Source of the DNA: Marinoscillum sp. 108
GTDB lineage: Bacteria > Bacteroidota > Bacteroidia > Cytophagales > Cyclobacteriaceae
Assembly (NCBI RefSeq): GCF_902506655.1
Contig: NZ_LR734817.1
Span: forward strand, 523,667-587,666
DNA length: 64,000 nucleotides
Direction: 5' to 3'
Part shown: piece after piece, positions 7,016 to 41,256 of the stretch
Position numbering within the stretch: the first letter of the stretch is position 1
How the letters are laid out: every line of letters begins with the position of its first letter
Notes under the pieces: model-generated
What the model was told of the DNA's origin: nothing
Databases searched by the model: none
Seen by the model: the letters and a program-made list of their open reading frames with translations, nothing else
Made by a program: the position numbers and the translations under genes

Positions 7016-8749
7016 ATGCCAGCGAAGGACAACACCAATGATGAGTATGTAAGAAAAAGAGTTGATGACATCAGCAAGCTCATCTATGAGGTAGCTGCGG
7101 GCAATTTCGACTACAAACTCAAACAACGTGACGTAGAGGGTGAACTGGAAGGCCTCATCGGGGGGATCAATATGCTGGGTGAAGAACTGAAAGCCAGCAC
7201 AGTCTCCAGAGACTTTATGGAGAGCATCTATAAGGGTGTGGTGGATATCCTGATCATTATCACCCCGGATCAAACCATTGATAGGGTCAATGATGCGGTC
7301 GTTGACCACCTGGGCTACTCACCCCAGGACCTGATAGGCCGTGATTTCAAAACACTCCTTTCTACAGAAGATTTCTCCTTTCTTCAGGACATACAGCAGC
7401 ACCTCGCCTCCAACGGGGCATATCATAACGCTGAACTCAGGCTGCTCCGAAAGGATAAATCGCTCCTGGAAACTTCGGCTTCCTTTTCTTCCCTGTTTGA
7501 CAACCAAAAGAATCACCTTGGCACCATCGTCATAGCCAAAGACATCACACATATAAAGGAAACTGAGCGGGAACTCAAAAAGGCCAAGGAAAAAGCTGAG
7601 GCGGCAAACAAGGCCAAATCGCACTTCCTGGCCAATATGAGTCACGAAATTCGAACTCCGTTGAACGGAATGCTCGGTTTTCTGGAGTTACTCGGCGGCA
7701 CTTCGCTTGATACTAACCAGACAGAGTACCTGGATATGATCAAAACCTCCGGGCAATCCCTCGCCAAACTACTGAACGACATTTTGGATCTGAGCAAGGT
7801 GGAAAATGGCAAACTGAACATTGAGCATGTGCCTTTCAACCTTAAAAGCTCCATCCAACCCAGTTTTCAAACCTATAGCTATCTGGCCAGAGAAAAAGGC
7901 CTGGACTTTATTCTGGACTTTGAGCCAGACCTACCTGAAATAGTCATTGGAGATCCCTCACGGCTGACCCAGATCCTGACTAACCTGATAGGCAACGCAC
8001 TCAAATTTACCCAGGAAGGCAGTGTATTCATCAGAGTATCAGGAAGTAGGAAGGATAATCACCACCTGGATCTATTACTTGAGGTCACAGATACTGGAGT
8101 TGGGATTCCCGAGCAGATGCGAGCATCTATTTTTGATAGTTTCACGCAGGCAGATACCTCCACCACTCGAAAATTTGGAGGTGCCGGACTTGGACTGGCC
8201 ATTACCAAACACCTGGTGGCCCTCATGGGTGGCACCATCAAATTCGAATGTCCTCCGATATCCAAAAATCAGGACAATGGTACCTCCTTCTTTGTGGAGC
8301 TACCCCTGAAAGTACCTACCTCCACCGGGCGTTCCGAGCATGATCCTGCTGCCACCAAAGAAACACCGGCCTTTCCCAGGGGTTTCAGGGTGCTCCTTGT
8401 GGATGACAATGAAATCAATATCCTATTGGCGCAGAAAGTACTGGAAAAGCTAAATGCCAATGTGTCTTTGGCCCGTGATGGAAAACAAGCCCACGATCTG
8501 GCCCTGGAGCAAAAGTTTGATGTCATTCTGATGGATATACAGATGCCCGTGATGGATGGATTTGAAGCCTCCACTGCGCTTCGGAAAGCTGGATATCAGG
8601 CACCCATCATTGCTCTATCGGCCAATGTTTACCCCGAAGAAATCAAAACCTGCTTCGAAAATGGAATGAACGGACATATTGGGAAACCATTTACCGTGGA
8701 TGGCATTTTCAACAAAATCACCTCTGTAATCAACGAAAGTCCGGATTAG
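7016..8749 (+). CDS. Soluble PAS-domain hybrid histidine kinase/response regulator
   Basis: The 577-residue protein begins with a HAMP-like stretch (about 10-60), then a PAS domain (about 68-185), a HisKA box [15 protein letters not shown] with phospho-acceptor His210, and an ATPase domain with N box (LIGNALKFT) and G boxes ([17 protein letters not shown]). A C-terminal receiver domain follows, with DDNEIN and phospho-acceptor Asp507 in [11 protein letters not shown]. There is no membrane segment or signal peptide, so it should sense a cytoplasmic cue through PAS. No cognate regulator or output gene lies next to it. Its stop overlaps the convergent gene by 4 nt. Confidence 0.93.
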
Positions 8750-11181
8750 GAACTAATCGTTTCATTCTGGACCACCTCCATCATTTCCATAGCAAAGTTA
8801 TCCTTCGCCTGTATGTAGGCGATCTTCTGTATAGATTCGGCCCCTACCTTCCGTTTCTCAAAAGACGCAGAAAAACCAAAATCAATTCGTTTAAAATCAA
8901 GTGCTCTCGCCCTCAATACAGTCTGAAACAACATCTGGCGGTACACCGAAAACTCATCCGAATAATCGTAATCCAACCCGATGAGTGAAGGCACATAGGT
9001 CAAATTCAGGTTCTTGTAAGAAAACATCACACCTATGAGTCGCTCAGGGCTTTTCTCTCCCCCAGCAGGGTACATTTTGATGAATTCCCAATTTGAATCC
9101 GCATTCATCACCTCAAAGACAGATTGAGGATAAGCAAATGTGTTCATATCGAAATTCTTGTCCCAGACATTACGGTAAAGCGAATAGGCTTTGCTAAGTT
9201 CTCCCTCATCTAAGTCATTGGTCACTTCCACCTGAACCCGATCTGTGAACTTCTCTATATCCTGACGGAAATGCTTTCTGGATTTGGACGATAAACGCTG
9301 TAGATAATCATCTTGCGTGGACCATGACAAGTCCTCCATCACACAAGAATCAGGCAAAGCAGCCTTTACATAGCCCTGACCATCGCAATGTGCTTTAAGA
9401 AAATCATCGGAAAGAGTGAAATCCCGTAAGGCAATCACATCCGGCTGAAGCTCCTCATCAATTTTGGTGAGCGTCTGGAAAAATAAATTCAGAATGGCGT
9501 CTTTGTCCGGGTGCTCCTGATCCAGATACAAATGATCCCCCTCTGTAAACAATGACCCCATGGCCAGCACCTGACTAGAGTGGTACAGCGGGTCACTGAG
9601 CCTCTTTTTCTCCAAAGCCATAGAAACGGAAGCCGGTGCCAACATGTCATCCTTCCAAAGTGTTTTGGTCAAAAAGGTGGCCAGCACAATCTTATCAGCC
9701 TTGTCTCTGATCAGCACAAACCTGAAATCCCACTGATGTTCTGGTGCCTGCGAAGCACCAAAGGCCTGCTCCAGAAATTGCAGCCCTGCAAAATCAAAGA
9801 CGTTTCTCCCTTTGAAAATATCATCCCATTCCTTGGCTGGCAACTCATCGGTGTTCATATATACGGATACCCGAAAGGATGCTGGCATTTTGATTGGTGC
9901 TGATTGCCCTTTGTCCAACAGAGGCAACCCAAATGTTTTCCTGACTTGATTTTTGGTGGTGGTTTCCTCTGCCAGAGCCACAGGATACAACCTATCCATG
10001 GCCTCTACCAGGGCCTTGATATCTTCCTTTTGGTTATGCCTGGACACCGTGAACCTCACTCCAGTGCGCTTCACCGCGACTGCAGGGAAAACCCCCATAT
10101 TCACATAAAAGCCCGCATCCATGAGCTTTTTCACAAAATTGTAACCTACCGCTGGTGCGCCTGTTCCAATATAAAATACAGGGCAGTTATTTTCTTCAAT
10201 CAAAGGCAGGTCGGTTTTCGCAAGACACGCATTACAATAAGCTACCTTATCGGCCAGCTCCTTCTGCATGTCATAGATCTCATCTGACAGGTGGATATCT
10301 GCCGATGCAATGGCTGCAGCCACCGAGCTGGGTTCCAGCTGAGCAGAAAATGTAAGCGGCCCTCCAAAGCGCTTCACCCTTGTATAAAAATCTTTATTGG
10401 CCGTGACCATGGTAGCACCACTGGCTCCAAAGGTTTTGCTCAATGTGGTAAAAACAATGACATTTTGAGGTAATTCCCCGTATTGACTAATCACATAGCC
10501 AGTGCCATTCTTACCCACCCAGCTCATACCGTGCACATCGTCATAGTAGAGGCATAGCTGAGGGTACTTGGCAGATAGTTCCTTTAATCTCCCTATGGGC
10601 GCTTCATCGCCATACATAGAATACACTCCGTCAGCAAAATACCATATCTTATCCGCCACGGAGCTGAGGTCTTTGATCTTCGCCTCCAGCATTTCCATGT
10701 TATTGTGCTTGATCATTTCTACCGGAATACCGCGAGTCCTGGCTATCTGACAGCTATTCTGTACACTCCAGTGCACTTGCTGATCCAGAATAATCGCATC
10801 TTCATCCCGCACCACTGTGGGGATAGTACCCAGGTGTCCCAGGGTGCTATTTTTGGTGACCACCACAGGATAGCCGTACATTTTTTCCAGCTTATCCTCG
10901 AGTTCACTATAGGCCGAATGTGAGATAAAGGTTTTGGAAAGAGGAAACTGCGTACCATATCGCATGATCGCGTCTACTGCGGCTTTCTTTATCCTGATGT
11001 CCTGCTCAAGCCCCAGGTATCCTGTAGTGCCAAAGTGACAAAGGTCCTTCCCGTTGACTTTAATGTGACGACCGGTAAAGTGATCATCCTCAGTGTACAA
11101 ATCCACCACACCCTTCTCCGATGCATTTCGCGAAATTTCAACAACTGTATCGATATAATTATTGTGTCGGATTTTTGCCAT
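8746..11181 (-). CDS. Fusion of AOS-family PLP enzyme and GNAT-like N-acyltransferase
   Basis: Read from ATG 11181 the protein has 811 residues. Residues 1 to about 405 form an alpha-oxoamine synthase (2-amino-3-ketobutyrate CoA ligase / serine palmitoyltransferase type) with His137 in DQQVHWS, DDVHG around 214-218, the Schiff-base Lys249 in TLSKTFGASGA, and the carboxylate-binding Arg in GVRFTVSRHN. Residues from about 430 form a GNAT/FemAB-like acyltransferase with SSKSRKHFRQDIEKF and IDFGFSASFEKRK. AOS enzymes condense an amino acid with an acyl-thioester, and the GNAT part could N-acylate the product. This suggests sphingoid or sulfonolipid synthesis, but the substrate is an inference. 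The upstream in-frame extension to 11256 is rejected, because a promoter lies inside it. Confidence 0.85.
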   Translation of the reverse strand: MAKIRHNNYIDTVVEISRNASEKGVVDLYTEDDHFTGRHIKVNGKDLCHFGTTGYLGLEQDIRIKKAAVDAIMRYGTQFPLSKTFISHSAYSELEDKLEKMYGYPVVVTKNSTLGHLGTIPTVVRDEDAIILDQQVHWSVQNSCQIARTRGIPVEMIKHNNMEMLEAKIKDLSSVADKIWYFADGVYSMYGDEAPIGRLKELSAKYPQLCLYYDDVHGMSWVGKNGTGYVISQYGELPQNVIVFTTLSKTFGASGATMVTANKDFYTRVKRFGGPLTFSAQLEPSSVAAAIASADIHLSDEIYDMQKELADKVAYCNACLAKTDLPLIEENNCPVFYIGTGAPAVGYNFVKKLMDAGFYVNMGVFPAVAVKRTGVRFTVSRHNQKEDIKALVEAMDRLYPVALAEETTTKNQVRKTFGLPLLDKGQSAPIKMPASFRVSVYMNTDELPAKEWDDIFKGRNVFDFAGLQFLEQAFGASQAPEHQWDFRFVLIRDKADKIVLATFLTKTLWKDDMLAPASVSMALEKKRLSDPLYHSSQVLAMGSLFTEGDHLYLDQEHPDKDAILNLFFQTLTKIDEELQPDVIALRDFTLSDDFLKAHCDGQGYVKAALPDSCVMEDLSWSTQDDYLQRLSSKSRKHFRQDIEKFTDRVQVEVTNDLDEGELSKAYSLYRNVWDKNFDMNTFAYPQSVFEVMNADSNWEFIKMYPAGGEKSPERLIGVMFSYKNLNLTYVPSLIGLDYDYSDEFSVYRQMLFQTVLRARALDFKRIDFGFSASFEKRKVGAESIQKIAYIQAKDNFAMEMMEVVQNETISS

Positions 11182-11284: not shown

Positions 11285-11292
11285 TATCTTTG
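11285..11292 (+). promoter_or_regulatory. -7 promoter element of the small STAS-like gene
   Basis: TATCTTTG matches TAnnTTTG, with a TTG at 11267-11269 as a possible -33 box 15 nt upstream, slightly short of the usual spacing. It gives a leader of about 27 nt to the ATG at 11326 and makes the in-frame TTG at 11290 unlikely as a start. Confidence 0.45.
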
Positions 11293-11325
11293 ATTAACTA
11301 TCCATTTAATCAGAGGTTTTCAGAA

Positions 11326-11700
11326 ATGAACTTTTCATCCATAGAAAATGATTTTGCTCAGTTTCACATCAGGGATGGAGTGATGTTCTTTACCTACAAG
11401 CCTGATATAGAGATTGACCTGGATGGTGCCAAACGCATAGTCGCTGATCGACTCAAACTCCAGGGAGAAGAAACCTACCCCGTAGTATGCGACATTCGGG
11501 GGCTCAAGGGTGCCAATAAGGCGGCAAGGGATTATCTGGCTAATGAAGGGTCTGAAAAAGTGAAAGTAGTGGCGCTGATTGTGGCTTCACCGGGTCTGAA
11601 AATCATGACAGACTTCTATCTCATGGTAAATAAACCCACGGTTCCTACCAAAATTTTCACCTCGGAAGATCAGGCTGTTAAGTTTATAGAATCCCTTTAG
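11326..11700 (+). CDS. Small STAS/SpoIIAA-like protein, function unknown
   Basis: The 124-residue soluble protein alternates strands and helices. Examples are VMFFTYKPDIEIDLDGAKRI, YPVVCDIRGLKG, VKVVALIVASPGLKIMTDFY and a final TEE-like FTSEDQAVKFIESL. The last element is typical of STAS/SpoIIAA-like domains in which a swapped helix closes the fold. Such proteins are common and mostly uncharacterised in Bacteroidota. It lies alone between divergent and convergent minus-strand genes. I chose ATG 11326 because of the promoter at 11285-11292 and because the text before it looks non-coding. Confidence 0.72.
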   Translation: MNFSSIENDFAQFHIRDGVMFFTYKPDIEIDLDGAKRIVADRLKLQGEETYPVVCDIRGLKGANKAARDYLANEGSEKVKVVALIVASPGLKIMTDFYLMVNKPTVPTKIFTSEDQAVKFIESL

Positions 11701-39098: not shown

Positions 39099-40958
39099 TC
39101 AATTGTATTTGATTAAAAGGTTGAATTGATAATTTTTTCCGGGCATGGCCCGATTGATAAGGTTTTCGTAAGGCTGATCGAAGACGTTCTTGACAGCAAC
39201 GCTTACCTCCAGATCAAATCCGTCCGATACCGCAAGCGTCTTTCCCATATGGACATCAATCAACAGGTATCCATCGACAGACTGGATTTCCGTATTATCC
39301 AGGGTGGTAAACCTCTTCCCCGTAAAATCTCCCATTGCTTTCCCAAACCACCCCTTGTCCGAGCTGGTCTTCAAGGACAAGTTGGCGTTGTGAAGCGGGG
39401 TATATGGCAGTTGCTTCCCTTGATTGGTTCCCTCCTTGTTTTGTGACTGAGTGTAGGAATAGGCTGAACCAACCTCATGAAGGAGTCCGATCCACTTTCC
39501 GCTCATCTTCGCGCTGAACTCCATTCCCGTGATTTCCACTGCACGGAAGTTTCGTGGGGACCAGATGCCAGATCCATCTGGCAGCCAGATGATCCAGTTG
39601 TCGGACCATGTATTAAATGCTGTCAAATCCAAACTAGAAGAGAAAGCTGGCCCAGTATGTGCCCAGCCTACGCCACCTTCCAGGTTGAAACTTTCCTCGG
39701 GTTTCAAGTCGGGGTTACCGCCAGGGGACCAGTGGAGATCATTGAGTGTAGGGTAGCGAAATCCCCAGGCCAACTGACTATTGATGGCTACCCGGTTCTT
39801 TTCCGTATTTAAGACTGAAAATTTCTGATTAAAAGAGGGTGTAAACGGGCGATTCTCCTGATAAAATGACCGCCTCAAGTTGATGGTTCCCGTCCACCAG
39901 GTGGTTGGCTTGATCTCAAGCGAACCAAAAAGTGCTGTCTGGCGATCAACAAAATGGCTTACATAGTTGTCTGAGCGGGCAGTGAAAAAATTGGTATTGC
40001 CGCCCAAACGAACAGCCAGAACCTCCGAAAGTTCTCCCCAATACGCCACCAAAGCCGAATACTGATTGGAAACAGTGCGATCATCCTGATTATACTGCTG
40101 GTCATTTTGAAGAAAGGCCAGAGTACTGGTAAGACTGCCTTTGGGAAGCTCCAATTGATAACCCGCCGCCAGCCTAACATTCCCTGTTTGAAGCTCATCC
40201 TGCAGATTTGGGCTCACTTTGGAGGGCTGTACCTCCCGATCATTGCGAGTATACTGCGCATCGAGGGTCACCTTCTGATTCGGACTAACCTCATAACTCA
40301 GTTGCTGCTGCACTCCATAGTTGAGCACAGAAGCATTCTTTTGACGCGCTTGTTTTCCCGCGTATTCATAAGGGAAATCATTCTGAAGAAAACTTCGAAA
40401 TATTTTAGTAGCACCCCTCCATTGGCCCTGACTATAGGCACTTCTAATTCCTGTAAAGAGGTACCCAAAGCTCCCAACACTCATTTTTCCCTCTAGCAAA
40501 GGGCTTTCGGTCAGGTTCATCTCAGAATCGATGAGTACTGTCCCACCAATGGCTCCACCTCCATAAAGCGCTCCGCCACTGCCCGGCTGAATAGCCACCC
40601 TCTCCATCAACCACGCTGGCCATTGAGAAAAATCCAACTGGCCTAGTGTGGGATAATTAGCCGGAATACCATGCCAAAGCACACTGGTCTGACTCGCCGA
40701 AGTACCTCTGAATGAAATACTGGACAATTGCTGATTGCCGTAAGATTTGAAGTAAATGGAGTTTTCATCTGACAAGGCCTCCTCCAGAGAGGAAGAACTA
40801 TTGGTGAGGGCAATGCTTCGGTATCCAGTGCCGGTAGTGAAGCGCTGAAACGAATCGCCAACTACTGGCAGCTCCTCCAGGTACACGGTATCCTCCTGTG
40901 CCATTGCCCAGAGGGAAATGGTGCCCGTCAGCACATACATTAATATTCTCGAGACCAT
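39099..40958 (-). CDS. btuB: BtuB-like TonB-dependent cobalamin receptor
   Basis: The 619-residue outer membrane protein has a signal peptide ending near LWAMAQ, a plug domain (about 30-160) with SSISFRGTSASQTSVLWHG and GGALYGGGAIGGTVLI, and a 22-strand barrel ending in an aromatic C-terminus (YQFNLLIKYN). It lacks the carboxypeptidase-like N-domain typical of SusC. A cobalamin riboswitch precedes it, so its cargo is almost surely B12 or a related corrinoid. It is co-transcribed with the btuG-like gene. Confidence 0.92.
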   Translation of the reverse strand: MVSRILMYVLTGTISLWAMAQEDTVYLEELPVVGDSFQRFTTGTGYRSIALTNSSSSLEEALSDENSIYFKSYGNQQLSSISFRGTSASQTSVLWHGIPANYPTLGQLDFSQWPAWLMERVAIQPGSGGALYGGGAIGGTVLIDSEMNLTESPLLEGKMSVGSFGYLFTGIRSAYSQGQWRGATKIFRSFLQNDFPYEYAGKQARQKNASVLNYGVQQQLSYEVSPNQKVTLDAQYTRNDREVQPSKVSPNLQDELQTGNVRLAAGYQLELPKGSLTSTLAFLQNDQQYNQDDRTVSNQYSALVAYWGELSEVLAVRLGGNTNFFTARSDNYVSHFVDRQTALFGSLEIKPTTWWTGTINLRRSFYQENRPFTPSFNQKFSVLNTEKNRVAINSQLAWGFRYPTLNDLHWSPGGNPDLKPEESFNLEGGVGWAHTGPAFSSSLDLTAFNTWSDNWIIWLPDGSGIWSPRNFRAVEITGMEFSAKMSGKWIGLLHEVGSAYSYTQSQNKEGTNQGKQLPYTPLHNANLSLKTSSDKGWFGKAMGDFTGKRFTTLDNTEIQSVDGYLLIDVHMGKTLAVSDGFDLEVSVAVKNVFDQPYENLINRAMPGKNYQFNLLIKYN

Positions 40959-41067
40959 GAATTAAATTTCAAATTCAATTCAAAGCCATCGGAAAAAGTA
41001 AGAAGCATGGTAAACCAAAAGGTTATCAAATTTCTCTGCTTTCCACCGAAGCTTGGAACTATTCAAC

Positions 41068-41242
41068 ATGATTTGGCAGGTCTCCTGGCTCTTCCTGACT
41101 TGTCGCCTTCCCATCCCGATGTTCGGAACAGTGGCAAGATGTGACAAGCCTTTGAATGGAATTACAGTTGCGGGGACAGCTCTCGTTTCTCACGAGATTC
41201 CCTTTTAATCCTGATGCACGCGGTGCATTCAGAAACCACAAT
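41068..41242 (-). ncRNA. Cobalamin riboswitch
   Basis: On the minus strand the conserved cobalamin elements appear in order. First comes GGGAATCTCGTGAGA with its hairpin, then GCTGTCCCCGCAACTGTAA. The B12 box GCCACTG follows at 41135-41129, then GGGAAGGCGACAAGTCAGGA and finally GAGACCTGCC near 41086-41077. The aptamer begins right at the predicted transcription start (promoter 41249-41256) and ends about 110 nt before the btuB ATG. It should shut off btuB-btuG when adenosylcobalamin or a related form is plentiful. I see no strong terminator in the expression platform, so translational control is the likelier mode. Confidence 0.95.
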
Positions 41243-41248
41243 CGTGAG

Positions 41249-41256
41249 CAAATATA
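41249..41256 (-). promoter_or_regulatory. -7 promoter element of the riboswitch transcript
   Basis: The minus strand reads TATATTTG, an exact TAnnTTTG match, with initiation expected near 41242, just where the conserved riboswitch sequence begins. The agreement of the two independent signals strengthens both. Confidence 0.6.

Follow-up and report, generated by a model that had tools for sequence, protein, structure and literature searches.

Within a 64,000-nucleotide stretch of Marinoscillum sp. 108 (Cytophagales, Cyclobacteriaceae; contig NZ_LR734817.1, positions 523,667 to 587,666, hereafter the window), one gene fuses an alpha-oxoamine synthase (AOS) domain to a double-GNAT domain. The fused architecture, its catalytic positions and its neighborhood are conserved among relatives: the gene usually lies beside genes for a small DUF7793 protein and a HAMP-type sensor, the sensors join a shared input to exchangeable outputs, and both partners follow the module. 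The reading we favor, at a probability of somewhat under one half (roughly 0.45), is that the fusion makes a small-molecule signal perceived by the sensor beside it, much as in CqsA/CqsS, although its AOS domain falls in a clade of its own. The AOS domain would condense an amino acid with an acyl-thioester and decarboxylate the adduct to an alpha-aminoketone, which the FemX-like GNAT domain would then N-acylate or N-aminoacylate; the product could be read in the cell, or after diffusion between cells, by the neighboring HAMP(-PAS) sensor, with the DUF7793 protein as a putative accessory binding or coupling subunit. The features concerned are:

8746..11181 (stop included), minus strand: AOS-GNAT fusion protein, 811 aa; open reading frame (ORF) with its start supported by relatives
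9967..11181, minus strand: AOS domain (fold-type I pyridoxal phosphate, PLP), residues 1-405, closest solved fold Alb29; by Pfam, profile, model and fold search
10435..10437, minus strand: Lys249, the PLP Schiff-base lysine position, kept in 76/76 fusions
10933..10944, minus strand: PLSK loop, residues 80-83, in place of the GSR loop; by alignments, Ser82 near-invariant and residue 83 Lys or Arg in relatives
8767..9879, minus strand: C-terminal double-GNAT (FemX-like) domain, residues 435-805, Lys776 invariant in 73 full-length copies; by Pfam, model, fold and alignment
11290..11700, plus strand: DUF7793 (PF25056) protein, 136 aa, divergent to the fusion, sequence match to solved structure 3bl4; by profile
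7016..8749, plus strand: hybrid histidine kinase, 577 aa (HAMP-like N-terminus, PAS, HisKA, HATPase, receiver); by profiles

The fusion ORF is intact, with its ATG at 11181. Starting from a GTG further upstream would lengthen the product to 836 aa, but the MAK start is common to relatives (M1 invariant, A2 and K3 at no less than 90%, n=24), so the shorter frame given in a preliminary description of this DNA fits. Pfam places Aminotran_1_2 at residues 54-393 (82.7 bits, cut-off 19.7) and Acetyltransf_6 (PF13480) at 632-776 (30.9 bits, cut-off 22), with FemAB_like (PF04339) at 445-679 below its cut-off (23.5 versus 27), and the AlphaFold models are confident (full length, mean pLDDT 88 and pTM 0.85; C-terminal domain, mean pLDDT 91). 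A full-length fusion occurs in 11 of 60 genomes of the same family, and 25 of the 291 genomes from the order have a match, both counts including Marinoscillum sp. 108 itself (eight of the places listed for the order are AOS-only). In another genus, 33 of 199 genomes have matches, some of them partial or broken, and Pontibacter/Botryobacter hold six fusion loci. Because it is found repeatedly across genomes, the fusion is no chance or assembly join, and the claim that a single 811-residue polypeptide carries an AOS and a GNAT/FemAB-like domain is borne out.

The AOS domain retains His137, Asp215, His217, Lys249 and Arg376 in 76/76 aligned fusions, and the window protein shows the PLP lysine, ring histidine, Asp/His pair, carboxylate arginine and AOS fold of the superfamily by alignment, profile and Foldseek. 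Lys249, His137, the arginine of GVRFTVSRHN (Arg376) and PLSK at 80-83 all lie where the preliminary description put them. That description had also taken the replacement of the GSR loop as a hint of an unusual substrate; PLSK is indeed present in the window, but it is a variant and no fixed signature, because residue 83, at the GSR arginine position, varies among the 76 fusions (Lys 35, Arg 39, Ser 1, gap 1). Two further positions, whose roles in SulA are given in passages of PMC9304779, differ from the known enzymes. At SulA Asn53 the window has Thr53, and the 76 fusions have Cys (40), Thr (33), Tyr (1) or a gap (2), with Cys in 10/10 AOS-only relatives; the substrate asparagine is common to the SPT-like (serine palmitoyltransferase), KBL, BioF-like and SulA-like enzymes of the same genome. 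At SulA Lys281 the window has Ala280 and all 76 fusions A, G, V or H; the genome's own SulA-like enzyme (L005) has Lys. The missing asparagine marks a divergent clade, and Alb29-type AOS enzymes may also differ there.

Family models likewise keep the fusion at a distance. It scores 154 bits on the SPT model NF047600 (cut-off 640), 109.8 on the KBL model TIGR01822 (cut-off 493) and 77 on the CqsA model NF005526 (cut-off 428), and the best NCBIfam match of its AOS domain is PRK07505, an AOS subfamily described only as hypothetical protein (253 bits, cut-off 342; two AOS-only relatives reach 269 and 256). A quick, unrooted tree was built from 57 rows, including 27 fusions, 26 of which were picked at random; in it, fusions and AOS-only relatives form one group on a long branch (SH-aLRT 100), apart from the SPT, KBL, BioF, SulA and CqsA rows. 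The closest solved match by profile (201.6 bits) and by fold is Alb29 (8xha, 8xhk, 8xhd, 8i7u), with Foldseek TM scores of 0.85-0.88 over the target at 24-25% identity. SPT and SulA share fold and PLP-binding residues with the fusion, which differs from them in its Thr/Cys at Asn53, its lack of a Lys281 equivalent and its score far below the SPT cut-off. Taken together, the AOS domain seems fit for catalysis but appears to belong to another class of specificity. Identity as a KBL or BioF was rejected, as the genome encodes a KBL (L003, 712 bits, above the cut-off of 493) and a BioF-like enzyme separately; a variant KBL acting in threonine catabolism, to which the AOS fold alone would lend itself, is accordingly very improbable.

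For the C-terminal domain, Foldseek ranked FemX at the top (E 1.7e-12), followed closely by FemA, Sbb17 and Sba18, with weaker matches to tandem GNATs and N-myristoyltransferase; the fusion shares this fold with the FemX-type proteins, which are aminoacyl-tRNA-dependent, at about 13% sequence identity. PF13480 matches 21 of 24 fusion members at E 0.01, and family score and fold agree on a double GNAT. Across the 73 distinct full-length fusions, which come from the order of the window and from another family in its class, 25 positions are at least 97% conserved, including Lys776 (in all), Arg586 and Asp587. This conservation and fold fit a working transferase, for which acyl-CoA, acyl-ACP and aminoacyl-tRNA are candidate donors. 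That the domain instead does no chemistry on the AOS product and has a regulatory or targeting role is improbable given those 25 positions, although it is less conserved than the AOS domain (mean top-residue fraction 0.52-0.55 versus 0.64) and an AOS-only protein nested among the fusions (L160) lacks it yet keeps the DUF7793 and HAMP neighbors. No kinship with YghO, used as a single sequence, was detected (hhalign probability 1%); E. coli YghO, a relative of the Caulobacter ceramide N-acyltransferase, matches no Pfam family at E 0.05, and passages of PMC9386255 list it with the Caulobacter N-acyltransferase gene CC_1154.

We then turned to the neighborhoods of 88 loci, covering 79 fusion ORFs (broken and truncated copies included) and 10 AOS-only ORFs; ten fusion matches in the other genus of 199 genomes and one in the order (G836) fall outside this set, and several loci come from one genome or from close kin (e.g. 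L152, L153 and L159), so the counts are not independent. A DUF7793 gene lies within 2.5 kb of 72/79 fusion ORFs, and a HAMP-type sensor, cognate or otherwise, within 2.5 kb of 62/79. At 1.5 kb the corresponding numbers are 72/79 for DUF7793 and 63/79 for a HAMP or kinase-core match, against 0/13 for any of these in a small control set of canonical AOS loci (mostly SPT-like, plus one KBL, one BioF-like and one SulA-like from the same genome as the window), although detection is partly circular because each profile used (HAMP, kinase, receiver, AraC and DUF7793) was made from 8-25 sequences of the same loci. By Pfam, DUF7793 exceeds its cut-off in 11/11 genomes with a full-length fusion versus 3/49 others. 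The window copy scores 147.6 bits on PF25056, and DUF7793 matches in sequence the solved structure 3bl4 (E 1.8e-13), a SpoIIAA/STAS-like protein named only as uncharacterized. Gene order varies (divergent, convergent, or fusion-DUF7793-kinase on one strand), so the set persists through rearrangement; in the window the kinase is convergent with the fusion, their ends overlapping by 4 bases. Apart from the DUF7793 and sensor clusters, no neighbor cluster is common to more than 8 of 28 loci.

In the HAMP-like N-terminus and the PAS region after it, sensor kinases from the order of the window align with AraC-type proteins from a genus, f7, that is tentatively Flavobacterium. Outputs are exchanged behind this shared input: the 62 sensors near fusions divide into 26 kinase-receiver, 2 kinase and 27 AraC proteins and 7 without visible output, among which L042 is a HisKA_2 kinase by Pfam and L040 reaches the contig end. 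In family f68 the neighbor is a 211-226 aa protein in which no output was detected and PAS appears weakly in 2/3 tested. At five loci (L150, L152, L153, L157 and L159) the HAMP profile missed a 215-217 aa neighbor, so the sensor count may be low there; the L150 protein resembles the others by eye.

Five genomes carrying two module types, picked because loci of both types were in the data, allowed the partners to be compared within and between modules. The two DUF7793 copies of a genome, one from each module, are 27-29% identical, against 50-84% for copies from one module type in different genomes; for the sensor N-terminus the values are 17-25% and 30-97% (L179 has no HAMP match, and the first 190 residues of its kinase were used). 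DUF7793 and sensor therefore follow the module, not the genome. Most sensor copies of the second module type have one or two hydrophobic stretches in a crude hydropathy scan. At L174 (1786-15687) a run of genes on the same strand flanks this type: those for prephenate dehydratase, an aminotransferase, prephenate dehydrogenase, DAHP synthase, RsgA and Dtd lie to one side, and those for AroA and QueA to the opposite side. Similar loci occur among L168-L179. A substrate hint from these aromatic amino-acid genes (f7, L174) was set aside as weak, since the module looks inserted among housekeeping genes.

An AOS gene beside a sensor is the layout of a known signaling class. CqsA, according to passages of PMC3376566, makes the aminoketone Am-CAI-1 in vitro and is encoded with its own sensor kinase. 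In a survey of the phylum the CqsA equivalog exceeds its cut-off in 22/296 genomes, all in one other family (25 places), and at 6/6 CqsA-type loci opened the neighbor is a kinase that carries receivers and predicted membrane segments; these six (L218-L223) belong to a small-genome family outside the class of the window. Immediately after two AOS-only relatives of the fusion (L045 and L065) come kinases in which a simple hydropathy scan, the source of all membrane segments given here, predicts 4-5 such segments, a layout resembling CqsS. CqsA/CqsS and LqsA/LqsS, the alpha-hydroxyketone quorum-sensing systems, resemble the window module in pairing a PLP-dependent AOS enzyme with a sensor kinase, but belong to another AOS clade and have no fused transferase or DUF7793 partner. 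The signaling role, if real, may have arisen independently, given the separate clade. Literature searches limited to one open-license library listed no description of the gene set, no DUF7793 paper and no paper matching an SPT-GNAT fusion.

The preliminary description had proposed that the fusion performs both reactions of a ceramide-like lipid, and synthesis of such a lipid, or of another N-acylated long-chain aminoketone for the membrane with the sensor merely regulating it, is the main rival account, possible but distinctly less probable. The two-step architecture is supported: the fusion, the full AOS set and the conserved transferase domain plausibly allow condensation followed by N-acylation, N-myristoyltransferase is among the fold matches, and passages of PMC11087976 describe one proposed bacterial ceramide pathway in which N-acylation precedes reduction. 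Supply of a ceramide or sulfonolipid class is not. SPT-like (595 bits on NF047600, just under the cut-off of 640), KBL, BioF-like and SulA-like (592 and 587 bits to PDB 7u7h and 28eh) enzymes are separate genes of the genome, and SulA homologs (E up to 1e-100) occur in 58/60 family genomes regardless of the fusion. SPT above 450 bits is found in 11/60 family genomes, two of them passing the curated cut-off, and the fusion does not replace it, because a strong SPT is present in 4/11 fusion genomes versus 7/49 others (p 0.10, relatedness ignored); the 7/11 fusion genomes without one could need another source, and the fusion may have a lipid role there. Both the substrate Asn and the SulA Lys are absent from the fusions, and, with no further neighbor cluster in more than 8 of 28 loci, no lipid gene travels with them. 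The fusion is thus probably not the main ceramide or sulfonolipid enzyme of its own genome, and a signal is more likely than a membrane lipid because the usual neighbors are a small DUF7793 protein and a sensor.

Several observations weigh against the signal reading, beginning with the low CqsA score and the seven fusion genomes without a strong SPT. The window sensor is HAMP-PAS and lacks the membrane part of CqsS; a hydropathy scan found no membrane segment in it. A DUF7793 neighbor is missing at 7/79 fusions, five of which (L036, L043, L146, L154 and L155) lie well inside contigs, and a detected sensor at 17/79. Three genomes lacking a full-length fusion also have DUF7793, a further five show a weak match under the cut-off, and G002, which has a partial fusion at a contig edge, lacks it. 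DUF7793 and a kinase stand together at enzyme-less loci (L074-L079, of which L078 and L079 are in the fusion-less G059); because such pairs exist, the pair is not dedicated to the product of the enzyme and may sense another cue and control the enzyme. The kinases at these six loci are HAMP-type or other histidine kinases, two of the ORFs being near 2000 aa, which suggests a wider DUF7793-kinase family; in G012 and G013, DUF7793 lies away from the fusion, beside a gene matching the kinase profile. Stops or frameshifts interrupt several relatives, as would suit an accessory function that can be dispensed with; broken copies include L038 (12224-14655), a few kb from an intact one, L064 (7487-9914) and L157. 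Lastly, the profiles found no signaling neighbor at 7/10 AOS-only relatives (L161-L167), and L167 adjoins a 1743-aa protein and small genes resembling, by eye, a peptide-synthetase cluster. This last locus, together with the kinship to Alb29, a stand-alone enzyme that uses L-glutamate and acyl-CoAs to form aminoketones in albogrisin biosynthesis (passages of PMC11906848), fits an enzyme of secondary metabolism making an aminoketone building block that the sensor only switches on; this is unlikely, given that no tailoring or export gene recurs beside the fusions at the 28 loci compared.

A shared promoter signature was considered and dropped: the Bacteroidota -7 motif appears in 4/73 regions upstream of fusions. 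A plasmid search returned 0 records at 80% coverage and two annotated AOS loci without such a module, plasmid annotation being incomplete. Elsewhere in the window a cobalamin riboswitch (41058-41256, minus strand, 105.7 bits) probably precedes the minus-strand ORF 39099-40958.

A more specific form of the signal reading, which we consider a long shot, is a one-polypeptide autoinducer synthase in which the FemX-like domain would add an amino acid from aminoacyl-tRNA and the resulting N-aminoacyl aminoketone would cyclize to a pyrazinone that a cytosolic PAS sensor reads. Such a system would be a counterpart to DPO/VqmA of Vibrio, reached through other enzymatic steps, and would make up a separate class of quorum sensing in Cytophagales (and in Flavobacterium, if our guess for the f7 genus is right). 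Were the product a membrane lipid, the fusion would define a new lipid class with a sensor attached. If the signal reading holds, a fairly common gene set of environmental Bacteroidota would be a chemical signaling system whose synthase, accessory protein and sensor are identified.

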